Source: Actinomycetes bacterium (GTDB lineage Bacteria > Actinomycetota > Acidimicrobiia > Acidimicrobiales > Microtrichaceae). From it: DNA of 64,000 nt. The notes beneath the pieces are model-generated. The model had not been told where the DNA came from, searched no databases, and saw only the letters and a list, made by a program, of their open reading frames with translations. Below, piece after piece: positions 38,692 through 42,321 of this stretch. A program made the position numbers and the translations under genes. The stretch is from contig JAAEPF010000032.1 of the NCBI GenBank assembly GCA_024222295.1, positions 1 to 64,000 of the forward strand. Direction: 5' to 3'. Numbering within the stretch: the stretch's first letter is position 1; each line of letters starts with the position of its first letter.

Positions 38692-38733
38692 TGAGACACC
38701 GGATCGGGGCCCTGAGACACCGGATCGGGGCCC
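38692..38733 (+). repeat. 21-bp tandem repeat, two copies
   Basis: TGAGACACCGGATCGGGGCC plus one C occurs twice in direct succession and a third partial TGAGA follows. It lies in the 153-base gap between the oxidoreductase stop and the SipW operon, and could be a regulatory site pair or a slippage product. Confidence 0.8.
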
Positions 38734-38800
38734 TGAGATTTACCCGTCCATGGCCGTTTCATCGCTCAAGATGCGCGGTGAGGATCCGAGAGATTCGGCC

Positions 38801-39250
38801 ATGGAAAACACTCAAACCCCCACACAGGTACGACGGAACCGCGTCAAGAGGTCGCACCGATCGAACCGCTCATGGCGAGCGGTTGGCATCGGTGCTGCTG
38901 TATTGATGGCCTTCGTACTCACCGCATCAGCTGCCACCCTCGGTGGTCTCGGAAGCTCCGGACTCGGCGCTGACGACACCGTGGTCGCCAGCTGCGACAA
39001 CGATGGCGTGACCATCGACTACACGGTGGTCTACGACGCCACCGACGGTCGCTTCGAGGTCGACTCCGCTGACATCAGCGGCATCGCTGCGGCCTGCGTC
39101 GGCCAGACACTCGACGTCGCCCTGCGCGATGGCAGCGGCACCCTCCTCGACAGCGGCAGCGGCACTGTTTCCGGCGCCAGCGAGTCGATCTCGATGACGA
39201 ACGTGTCGGCCGAGGCAGTCGAAGCCGCCAGCGTCGCCATCTACAGCTGA
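38801..39250 (+). CDS. Exported protein with SipW-type signal
   Basis: The 149-residue protein has a long basic N-region (QVRRNRVKRSHRSNRSWR), a hydrophobic segment (AVGIGAAVLMAFVLTASA) and ATLGGLGSSGLGADD after it. This resembles the signal class processed by SipW peptidases before TasA/camelysin-type fibre proteins. The mature part is an all-beta domain of about 95 residues with two cysteines (VVASCDNDGVTIDYTVVYD, ISGIAAACVGQTLDVALRDG). It is first in a three-gene set with a second exported protein and the peptidase. An ATG at 38771 is a longer alternative start. It is likely a structural surface subunit, by inference. Confidence 0.6.
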   Translation: MENTQTPTQVRRNRVKRSHRSNRSWRAVGIGAAVLMAFVLTASAATLGGLGSSGLGADDTVVASCDNDGVTIDYTVVYDATDGRFEVDSADISGIAAACVGQTLDVALRDGSGTLLDSGSGTVSGASESISMTNVSAEAVEAASVAIYS

Positions 39251-39280
39251 GCCTGACGGACCAGTTGTAGAGAGTCTCAG

Positions 39281-40006
39281 GTGCGCACACGCAAGATCAG
39301 CAGGGCCGATCGGAGCAGCATGCTCCGATCGGCCCTCGCCGTGCTCGCAGTGCTGTCCGCAGCGCTTGGGCTCCATCTCGCATCGGCCGCTCAACTGCCG
39401 CTCGCAACGTCACAGGTGTTCGCCCAGGACGTGCCCGGAACCATCCCGGTGTCACAGCCCCTGGCCCTGGACGACATGGGCGGCTTTCAGAACCTCAGCG
39501 GCCGCGTCGCCGAGATCGGGGGGCCGTGGCTGGTGCACCGCGGCTGGTTCCAAGTCTGGAACGGTGGCGCCCGGCGAATCGGCTGGGAAGACGCCGGCAT
39601 TGCCTCGCTCGACGTGTCGGCGCAGCGGGTGCGCGTAACCTCCAACGTCGCCACCAGCGGTCGCTTCGACATGGCCGTCGCCGCACGAGTCAACAACAAC
39701 GGACGACGGGGCATCCACGCGGTCTGGAGGGGCGACCAGGCCGGCCAACTGCAGATCGTGTTCGTGCGAGGCGGTACCCGCACGGTGCTCGCAGCACAGA
39801 CCGGCTTGCCGACCGGACCCGGTCTGCTGACCCTCGAGGTCGACGGCACGCAGGTCACCGCCTCGATCCACGGCTCCACCATCTCGGCCACCCTCACCCC
39901 CGCCCAGGACAACGCCCTGGGCGGTACGCGTGCCGGCATCTGGGCATACGGCTCCAACTCATGGAATGACCCCTTCACGGACTTCGTCGTGGAGTCATTG
40001 CCATGA
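39281..40006 (+). CDS. Exported lectin/LamG-like beta-sandwich protein
   Basis: The 241-residue protein starts at a GTG and has an export signal (MLRSALAVLAVLSAALGLHLASAAQ). The mature domain resembles the concanavalin-A-like/glucanase sandwich: SGRVAEIGGPWLVHRGWFQVW, RVTSNVATSGRFDMAVAARVNNNGRRGIHAVWRG, TLEVDGTQVTASIHG, with terminal FTDFVVESLP. Such domains bind sugars or form surface layers; no catalytic residues are evident. Its stop overlaps the signal peptidase start by ATGA, so production of the two is coupled and it is a likely substrate. Confidence 0.6.
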   Translation: MRTRKISRADRSSMLRSALAVLAVLSAALGLHLASAAQLPLATSQVFAQDVPGTIPVSQPLALDDMGGFQNLSGRVAEIGGPWLVHRGWFQVWNGGARRIGWEDAGIASLDVSAQRVRVTSNVATSGRFDMAVAARVNNNGRRGIHAVWRGDQAGQLQIVFVRGGTRTVLAAQTGLPTGPGLLTLEVDGTQVTASIHGSTISATLTPAQDNALGGTRAGIWAYGSNSWNDPFTDFVVESLP

Positions 40007-40683
40007 GTCCTCACGACCCACCCACGAGCGACTGCACGAAGACGGCCGACGAGCCGCCGGCCGGCAGCATCGCAGCCCCGTGGATGCCCGAGCACTCAGC
40101 CGGCGCGCACCCCAACCGTCGCAAGACCGACCCCGCCAACGCCACGGCCAGCACCGAGGTGCGGTGCAACCGCCCCGAACCGCACCAGCGCGAGTCGCGC
40201 CGCGTGTTCTCCCGCGTGGCCGCCCTGCTCTGTGCCGTCGTCATCGCTGCTCTGGCCGTTGCACACGCCAGTGGCTACCTCACGACCGTCATCGTGGCGG
40301 GCAACTCGATGGAGCCCGCCATGCACGGTGGCGACCTGGCGATCGCGAGTGCCCCCGGCGAGTACAACGTGGGCGACGCTGTGGTGCTGGTCGTACCAGA
40401 GGGCGAACCCGGCGCCGGCCAGAGGGTGGTTCACCGCATCATCTCGACCGACGACGGAGTGATCCGCACCCAGGGCGACAACCGCGACACCGCTGACATG
40501 TGGGCGATCACGACCGCTGACATCAAGGGCCGGGTCGCCGTCGTGCTCGACTCGGCAGGCCTGCTCCATTTCCTGCAGAACCCGTTGGTGATCGGCGGTC
40601 TGGCCGCCGTCGTCACGCTTGCGTTCCTGGCACCCTCGCTGGCACCATCCGGCGGCGACCAGCCGCGCAGGCGACGCGGATAG
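40003..40683 (+). CDS. SipW-type signal peptidase I
   Basis: The 226-residue protein has a hydrophilic N-terminal extension of about 65 residues, then a membrane helix (VAALLCAVVIAALAVAHAS) and the S24/S26 peptidase fold. The nucleophile Ser is in VAGNSMEPAMHGGDLAI. RVVHRIISTDDGVIRTQGDNRDTADMWAI contains the SipW/archaeal-type VVHRI box, where His replaces the Lys of standard bacterial enzymes. A second helix (PLVIGGLAAVVTLAFLAPSL) and a basic tail follow. It shares an ATGA overlap with the preceding exported-protein gene, so it appears dedicated to this operon. Confidence 0.88.
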   Translation: MSPHDPPTSDCTKTADEPPAGSIAAPWMPEHSAGAHPNRRKTDPANATASTEVRCNRPEPHQRESRRVFSRVAALLCAVVIAALAVAHASGYLTTVIVAGNSMEPAMHGGDLAIASAPGEYNVGDAVVLVVPEGEPGAGQRVVHRIISTDDGVIRTQGDNRDTADMWAITTADIKGRVAVVLDSAGLLHFLQNPLVIGGLAAVVTLAFLAPSLAPSGGDQPRRRRG

Positions 40684-40734: not shown

Positions 40735-42321
40735 CTACGGAACCTGGATGATTCCCGCGGCCCCTCCGAGGGTGCCGGACACGATCGAGCCGAACGGTCC
40801 GACCTCAGTTGCGGCGTAGGCGGAGTTGTCGCTGCTGGACTGCGTGAGGGGGATGCGGAACACGCTGGCCCCGGTGTGCCAGTCCATGCCCTCGAGGGTC
40901 CAGAATCCGTTGCGCGCACCCCAGCAGTAGGCGTAGCCGGTGGCTGTGCTCATCGACGGGATTCCGTTGGGGCAGCTGACGGTCTGGTTGACCCACACCG
41001 AATCGAGTGTGCGCGTGGCCGGGTCCCAACGGAACTTCTCCGCCCCGTGGGGGGCGATACTCGGGTTGCCGGAGTTGAACACTGCGAGCTTGTCGCCCGC
41101 CACGTCGAACGGGGGACCGTATGCGTTGCTCACGGTCATCACGTCGTGGGCACGGCCGGTGAGCGACTGCTCGGTGATCGAGCGGGTGGCATCGGGGTCG
41201 CCGAAGGTGATCGGGGCGTCGCCCGCCAGGCGACGGTCCTCACCGGGCAGCCCGGACCAGTCCGCCGGGATCTCATCTCGCCAGAACACGTTGAGGTGCA
41301 TCAACACCTGGCCATCTGCGATTGCCACGAGCTTGTCGTCGGAGCCCGATCCGAGCAGGGTCGGGGTGGTGCCGGAGCCCGGACCCAGCCGGCCGGGTGC
41401 AGGCACCGCCGGACCGCTGTCGTAGGCCACACTCCAGGCACCATCGGCCTCGTCGAGGGTGAGCGAGGTGCCGGTCCACTGCACCCGGAACATGTGGGAC
41501 TCCGTCACCACGTAGATGCCCCCGTCCTCGTCGATGGCGATCGAGTTGGACACCGTGTGGCCTCCGGGCAGCACGAGCGTCTGAAAGCCGGTGAAGTCTC
41601 GCTCGACGGACATCACCACGCCCGTCTTGGAGATCACGATGATGGTGCCGTCGTAGGTGAGGCTCATGCCGACGATCACATCGTCGACCGTTAGGACGCC
41701 ATCGGGGATCTCGAACGTATCGTCGAGTACGACGCCAGAAGTCGGGTCTCCCGCAACGGCATCGCGGAACCGACGCACCTGCGCCTGGCCGGCGGCGAAG
41801 AAGTGGCCGTTCACGTCCACGAAGGAGTAGGCGGTCGAGATCGCGTTCTCGATGCCGCCGGAAAGGTCGGGCAGCAGCGGGAGTTCGGACACCTTCTGCA
41901 GGCCGGCCTCACTGTGCACCGACTTGTGCACGCCGAACCACGCCGAGCCCCAAACCGGGTAGGACCCGTCCGCGTAGGACGGGCCGTACGCCATCGTGAT
42001 GGCGCCCGGTGAGCCGGAAATCCTGTCGACGAACGTGGTGTCGTTGCGAGTCGGCCCGGGCAGCTCGGAAGACGCCTGCTGGTACGAGCTCTGGTGGCTG
42101 ATCGGCCATGGAGAATCCGCGAGGAAGGGATTGGCCGGCGGTTGGGTGTCATGCGGACCCGGAACCGGGTCCGGAGCCCATGGGTCCTCCGGGATGTCGG
42201 GTGGCGGATTGGTGCAGGCACCGGCGACCAGTGCCACCAGTGCCACCAGTGCCGCGATGACCAGCAATGCCTTGGTACGCCCGCCAGGCATAGGTCCATT
42301 CCCAGTGGATGTGTTGCTCAT
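40735..42321 (-). CDS. Large lipoprotein, probable beta-propeller
   Basis: The 528-residue protein has a lipobox (ALVALVAGAC) after a short basic lead. Alternating strands and turns follow, such as VDDVIVGMSLTYDGTIIVISKTGVVMSVERD, GGHTVSNSIAIDEDGGIYVVTESHMFRV and VSCPNGIPSMSTATGYAYCWGARNGFWTLEGMDW. The spacing suggests a propeller. I know no named family. ATG at 42291 (MPGGRTK) is an alternative start that gives a more usual signal. It converges with the signal peptidase gene. Surface location is supported; function is unknown. Confidence 0.65.
   Translation of the reverse strand: MSNTSTGNGPMPGGRTKALLVIAALVALVALVAGACTNPPPDIPEDPWAPDPVPGPHDTQPPANPFLADSPWPISHQSSYQQASSELPGPTRNDTTFVDRISGSPGAITMAYGPSYADGSYPVWGSAWFGVHKSVHSEAGLQKVSELPLLPDLSGGIENAISTAYSFVDVNGHFFAAGQAQVRRFRDAVAGDPTSGVVLDDTFEIPDGVLTVDDVIVGMSLTYDGTIIVISKTGVVMSVERDFTGFQTLVLPGGHTVSNSIAIDEDGGIYVVTESHMFRVQWTGTSLTLDEADGAWSVAYDSGPAVPAPGRLGPGSGTTPTLLGSGSDDKLVAIADGQVLMHLNVFWRDEIPADWSGLPGEDRRLAGDAPITFGDPDATRSITEQSLTGRAHDVMTVSNAYGPPFDVAGDKLAVFNSGNPSIAPHGAEKFRWDPATRTLDSVWVNQTVSCPNGIPSMSTATGYAYCWGARNGFWTLEGMDWHTGASVFRIPLTQSSSDNSAYAATEVGPFGSIVSGTLGGAAGIIQVP

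Follow-up and report, generated by a model that had tools for sequence, protein, structure and literature searches.

A compact operon from the class Acidimicrobiia encodes two exported proteins, P1 and P2, followed by a signal peptidase of the archaeal/ER type (S26B), and gene linkage gives good support to the dedication of this peptidase to the operon's own proteins. The operon lies in a window of 64,000 nucleotides, which is the whole stretch of DNA that was analyzed. Our best reading, made by analogy, is that the operon is a counterpart of tapA-sipW-tasA without being a member of that group. We judge the chances to be about even that this dedicated secretion operon builds a donor-strand fiber from P1, with the P2 lectin docked on it by its tail. 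A literature search that covered part of the published work returned no account of a P1-P2-S26B operon.

Operon layout and identity of the signal peptidase

The three open reading frames expected from the sequence-only reading, two for exported proteins and then one for a peptidase with a VVHRI box and an ATGA overlap, were all present (Table 1), with a spacing of 30 nt between P1 and P2. Across 30 operons, the overlap of the upstream gene's stop with the peptidase start was exactly 4 nt in 18 and no more than 11 nt in 27; this count takes in L099 and L100, where the upstream gene is another S26B, and L087, where the ORF is doubtful. Because the arrangement recurs across the phylum, with the exact 4-nt overlap in 18/30 operons, it is beyond what chance would give.

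Table 1. Features of the P1-P2-S26B operon, in window coordinates.
Feature	Coordinates	Strand	Description and basis
P1 ORF	38801..39250	+	149 aa, exported small beta-sandwich, proposed fiber subunit
P1 signal peptide	38801..38932	+	From sequence and alignment; cleavage most likely ASA|ATLGG, after residue 44 (inferred)
P1 conserved mature N-terminal tail	38933..38974	+	ATLGGLGSSGLGAD; proposed donor strand, from low pLDDT and conservation
P1 folded domain	38975..39247	+	Predicted 7-strand beta-sandwich with two invariant cysteines; pLDDT mostly >90
P2 ORF	39281..40006	+	GTG start, 241 aa, exported, lectin-like; predicted CBM66/concanavalin-like fold, family A5
P2 N-terminal tail	39389..39427	+	AQLPLATSQVFAQ; weak match to P1 tail, low pLDDT
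ATGA stop/start overlap, P2/peptidase	40003..40006	+	P2 ends CCA-TGA with the peptidase ATG inside it; exactly 4 nt
S26B (archaeal/ER-type) signal peptidase I	40003..40683	+	N- and C-terminal hydrophobic segments; from TIGR02228, SEC11 alignment and tree
Predicted catalytic Ser102 (GNSMEP)	40306..40308	+	Alignment to SEC11C
Predicted catalytic His144 (VVHRI), replacing the LepB lysine	40432..40434	+	Alignment to SEC11C

Two features flank the operon. Upstream, about 60 bp before the P1 start, positions 38700-38738 hold two exact 18-bp copies of CGGATCGGGGCCCTGAGA set 21 bp apart, with no further copy in the window (0.02 expected); the repeat is possibly regulatory or a local duplication. Downstream and outside the operon, a convergent gene (40735-42321, minus strand) encodes an exported protein of 528 aa that resembles a lipoprotein and has a beta-propeller (SBBP) match below threshold.

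The peptidase scored 56.1 bits against TIGR02228 (archaeal-type signal peptidase I), passing the cutoff of 51.85, and 18.6 bits against the SipW equivalog NF046067, failing the cutoff of 190. Its nearest solved relatives were SEC11C and SEC11A of the ER signal peptidase complex, which aligned with it over GNSMEP, VVHRI and GDNRD. By these profile matches and alignments, the window peptidase is an S26B enzyme of the archaeal/ER type, and SipW proper is excluded. In the peptidase called SipW-type earlier, the Ser (NSMEP) and His (VVHRI) boxes are in place, and the assignment to SipW itself failed on the NF046067 score.

The window's own genome contained two S26B genes, both beside P1 genes, and one separate LepB; no camelysin was found in it. 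In the second P1 and S26B cluster of this genome (G000:C17:204.7-207.0 kb; L014:8669-11033, minus strand), P1 is joined by an exported protein that is rich in Thr and has a long poly-Thr linker, by S26B, and by a second, diverged P1 whose gene overlaps that of S26B.

Linkage of P1 with S26B and distribution of the family

Loci were gathered by P1 alone, irrespective of any peptidase, and 57 distinct ones were left after re-fetches were removed. S26B was found within ~2 kb of P1 at 50/57 loci, or 50 of the 52 that could be assessed; at five (L067, L075, L077, L083 and L115) the contig ended less than 0.9 kb downstream of P1. The two loci at which S26B was truly absent near P1 were L015, whose genome has P1 and S26B clustered together at L016, on a different contig, and L069, whose genome (68% complete) gave no TIGR02228 match at E 1e-8. 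At the level of genomes, the class sample had S26B in 12/13 of those with P1 versus 71/283 of those without (Fisher p = 1.3e-6).

A quick maximum-likelihood tree of 52 P1-linked and 31 other S26B sequences required a single label change between the two sets, a value matched by 0/500 shuffles. In this tree, the separating branch had a support of 49, the linked set contained near relatives, and the unlinked rows were the top TIGR02228 matches. The dedication of the peptidase that had been proposed from the window thus held up in locus linkage, in genome co-occurrence and, across a weak branch, in the grouping of P1-linked peptidases; P1 homologs were not routinely found without a neighboring peptidase.

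Search profile A1, built from eight relatives, detected P1 genes in 13/296 genomes of the class and in 7/296 of a phylum-wide draw. A DNA-pattern scan of 84,980 species with a 10-row P1 alignment (A4) returned 43 loci, and a contig scan with the single P1 protein as query returned no match. The scan loci came mostly from Acidimicrobiia and other Actinomycetota, and also from Cellulomonas, Aeromicrobium massiliense, a Microbacteriaceae, Thermoleophilia and Nitriliruptorales; two P1 records are placed in Chloroflexi/Dehalococcoidia by their record titles. Given the 13/296 and 7/296 genomes and the 43 scattered loci, we consider the P1 family widespread but sparse.

Several individual loci deserve mention. 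The operon at L118 (JACZUI010000015.1), titled 'Acidobacteria bacterium isolate B15T1B8,' matches that of G243:C74, from the window's class; the Acidobacteria title is probably a misassignment, and L105 (B69T1B8) may likewise be mistitled. The usual gene order is co-directional; at L063 and L066, S26B is oriented away from a group made up of three P1 genes in tandem and the gene of a large exported protein. Two different tandem S26B genes stand behind P1 and a lectin-type partner at L099 and L100.

P1, its N-terminal tail and the middle gene

Searches of P1 against Pfam and NCBIfam gave no above-threshold match, and no model in them describes the family; across the 39 members there were three library matches, each to a single member (E 0.002-0.007). 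Judged by these searches, P1 is a family described by neither database. In its 39-member alignment (A2), two cysteines are invariant, and the signature A-A-S/T-L-G-G-(L/I/V)-(T/S)-S-x-x-L-G-A-(G/D) is followed by C-D-x-D-G-V. The AF2 model of P1 (pLDDT 87) found nothing below E 0.05 in Foldseek, and VIA-align reached Z values up to 6.9 with Ig-like domains from GH2 enzymes and an adhesin repeat, a resemblance that may reflect just a common arrangement. The fold matches listed for P1 included neither TasA nor camelysin nor pilins, though a relative of these kinds could lie outside that list. The top profile match was FimG (E 0.13-0.19, not significant), the sole sequence hint of a donor-strand pilin, and pilin ancestry of P1 was kept as a lead only.

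The mature N-terminus of P1 stands apart from the folded domain. In the AF2 model of the monomer, mature residues 1-12 are predicted to be disordered, with pLDDT below 50. At 2.14 bits versus 1.73 for the remainder (cysteines included), the first 14 mature residues form the most conserved stretch outside the two cysteines, and positions +11 to +14 (L-G-A-G) reached ~2.5 bits each. This tail, with hydrophobic residues at mature positions 3, 6 and 11, occupies the same place as the donor strand of TasA; that strand follows the signal peptide immediately, as residues 28-38, and its hydrophobic residues are given as F29, I32 and F39 (PMC9674648). As expected of a donor-strand subunit, P1 has an N-terminal extension that is conserved and, in the predicted monomer, left free; this is consistent with, and not proof of, a donor strand. 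The segment differs from the SipW-like signal that had been claimed for P1, as it reads AASLGG(L/I)(T/S)SxxLGA(G/D) and not the SipW-cognate F-x-D...N-x-F-x-A-G-T.

To a degree, the tail is shared with the partner proteins. With a tail profile made from P1 only, partner proteins of other folds outscored 100 further genes of their own loci that encode hydrophobic N-termini (p = 1e-6, AUC 0.78). The profile gave no score for 7/29 partner ORFs, at least one of which is spurious, and the strict tail pattern was absent from 11/50 linked loci, six being Cellulomonas; the motif is for these reasons a tendency and not a rule. The window P2 tail scored -1.3 in the P1-tail HMM, inside the control range. 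Profile-profile alignment of P1 with the lectin family covered just the tail segment (TLgGLGSSGLGA / QL-PLATSQVFA) at P = 0.09, a suggestive but not significant sign of a relationship between the two tails.

P2 had no above-threshold match in Pfam or NCBIfam and none among PDB sequences. Its predicted model (pLDDT 85.5) superimposed on the CBM66 of the SacC levanase with Z 19.6 and rmsd 2.2 over 158/205 residues (Foldseek E ~1e-7), and P2 is accordingly predicted to have a CBM66-like, concanavalin-like lectin fold. The lectin/LamG-like sandwich seen in the sequence-only reading proved correct as a predicted fold. A search with P2 alone recovered almost no relatives, though its structural family is common in such operons: the gene between P1 and S26B is usually carbohydrate-binding-like (CBM66-like or CBM96). 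A CBM66-like lectin is the middle gene in the window, L059, L060, L062, L064, L065, L068 and others, CBM96 was found in 9/10 of the other partner proteins scanned, and the middle gene of L073 is an RTX protein. This variety in the P2 slot suggests a conserved system on which binding heads can be exchanged. Strong lectin-family matches in the class sample numbered 8 loci, 7 of them with P1 and S26B and one (G169:C140) alone; the latter lectin gene has no adjacent S26B, and a peptidase is encoded elsewhere in the same genome.

Proposed mechanism, alternatives and known systems

We propose that P1 and P2 would be exported by Sec and that the operon's S26B would cut their signal peptides, a step that we infer from the linkage, the peptidases' own subgroup and the paired motif. 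Cleavage would expose the mature N-terminus, in P1 ATLGGLGSSGLGA, which is disordered in the predicted monomer. This tail would act as a donor strand entering the beta-sandwich of the next P1, giving a thin extracellular fiber on which P2, with its lectin fold and related tail, may dock as initiator, tip or decoration and bind polysaccharide. Polymerization of P1 is suggested by analogy, and the cleavage specificity, the position of P2 and its ligand binding are likewise presumed. In its general form, the proposal is of an Actinomycetota donor-strand fiber with subunits non-homologous to TasA/camelysin, in which S26B frees the tail and exchangeable tail-bearing lectin or CBM heads plug in; we offer this tentatively, at somewhat under an even chance.

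The main rival keeps the dedicated S26B operon and supposes that its substrates are soluble or surface carbohydrate-binding proteins that do not polymerize, the conserved N-terminus serving only as an extended peptidase recognition site. Linkage, tree and paired-motif evidence would be equally expected if this were so, the motif is common to partners of several unrelated folds, and the fold and sequence matches listed for P1 include no significant fiber-subunit relative. Signal peptidase I, however, generally reads the -3 to +1 region. Conservation in P1 runs past this region to +11 to +14, and the equivalent stretch of TasA is the donor strand (PMC9674648). The reach of tail conservation is the one point that disfavors non-polymerizing secretion, which we regard as a serious possibility that nonetheless falls clearly on the improbable side.

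A second alternative, that P1 is a very diverged TasA or camelysin and the operon an ordinary SipW/TasA locus, is unlikely. It would fit the archaeal-type peptidase encoded alongside P1 at 50/52 assessable loci, the position of the tail immediately behind the cleavage site and its [F/L]-x-A-G element at similar spacing, the small beta-sandwich, and the stop/start overlap as in tapA-sipW. Yet PF12389 (Peptidase_M73/camelysin) matched 0/39 P1 family members and nothing in the window's own genome, while a positive control in B. subtilis was detected; profile-profile comparison (hhalign) of P1 with camelysin-type proteins of the same class gave a probability of 0.1%; and P1, with its two invariant cysteines, is about half as large as TasA. 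The earlier statement that neither substrate is TasA- or camelysin-like holds at this level.

Camelysin-type proteins of the class also accompany a different S26B group. The SipW-type signal pattern occurred at 0/50 P1-linked versus 10/29 unlinked loci, and the P1-type pattern at 39/50 versus 2/29. Several unlinked S26B genes had neighbors with classic SipW-cognate signals (e.g., AFTDTTSNPNNAWDAGT), and 3/8 neighbors of unlinked S26B scored above the PF12389 cutoff. At L137, L143, L145, L147, L151, L159, L160 and L162, SipW/camelysin-type operons place S26B beside proteins with AFTDTTSN..N.W.AGT tails, and some operons of this type in the class include an additional exported protein of 400-500 aa. 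From the separate signals, the tree groups and the lack of P1-camelysin profile similarity, we conclude that true SipW/camelysin operons and the P1 system coexist in the class.

A chance or housekeeping neighborhood of exported proteins and a signal peptidase, of the kind that L015 and L069 (P1) and G169:C140 (lectin) might suggest by having no adjacent peptidase, is very hard to credit against linkage at 50/52 assessable loci across the phylum and beyond, gene overlap in most operons, and a tree group of the peptidases' own.

Signal-peptidase-I-released donor-strand fibers are known from Bacillus, where the archaeal-type SipW is dedicated to them, and from archaea. If the donor-strand reading of the P1 operon is true, it would add a second such fiber system, one whose subunits belong to an undescribed family and whose carbohydrate-binding heads are exchangeable, and the design would have arisen or diverged on more than one occasion. 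It would also offer a handle on polysaccharide adhesion by little-studied soil and water bacteria and would name a protein family, P1, left unannotated in current databases. Hosts include Acidimicrobiia, Cellulomonas, Aeromicrobium and others, and culturable Cellulomonas such as C. pakistanensis carry P1 and S26B.

In Bacillus, SipW processes the TasA fiber proteins. Like tapA-sipW-tasA of B. subtilis and sipW-calY of B. cereus, the operon encodes an archaeal/ER-type peptidase with presumed exported beta-sandwich substrates. It further resembles tapA-sipW-tasA in the conserved tail after the cleavage site of both the major and the second protein, although the window P2 tail is weak, and in the stop/start overlap of the second protein with the peptidase gene. 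The tapA and sipW genes overlap stop to start (PMC10151520), and the TapA N-terminus resembles the TasA donor strand and is proposed as a fiber starter (PMC9674648). Unlike TasA and camelysin, P1 fails in Pfam and in profile comparison, has two invariant cysteines, and carries the tail motif LGG-x-x-S-x-x-LGA, whereas the TasA/camelysin type is F-x-D...N-x-F-x-A-G-T. The second protein here has a predicted lectin/carbohydrate-binding fold, unlike that of tapA-sipW-tasA, and the window peptidase is not a member of the SipW equivalog and groups separately from the camelysin-linked S26B.

Archaeal threads (Saci_0406) and archaeal bundling pili are built of beta-sandwich subunits that are processed by signal peptidase I and use a conserved strand at the N-terminus for donor-strand complementation (PMC9715654); neither sequence nor significant fold matches link them to P1, and the gene cluster and hosts differ. 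For P2, the closest well-aligned fold to the predicted model is the CBM66 of B. subtilis SacC (PDB 4AZZ, 4B1M), from which P2 differs in having 14-16% identity, no attached enzyme and an extra N-terminal tail. CBM96 (PF24517) takes the P2 position in many relatives, several with a similar N-terminal tail, and is absent from the window operon. Finally, the peptidase shares the Ser-His S26B catalytic signature of SEC11C/SEC11A and archaeal signal peptidase I (TIGR02228); unlike those enzymes, it is bacterial and encoded beside two likely substrates, in a cell that also has an ordinary LepB.
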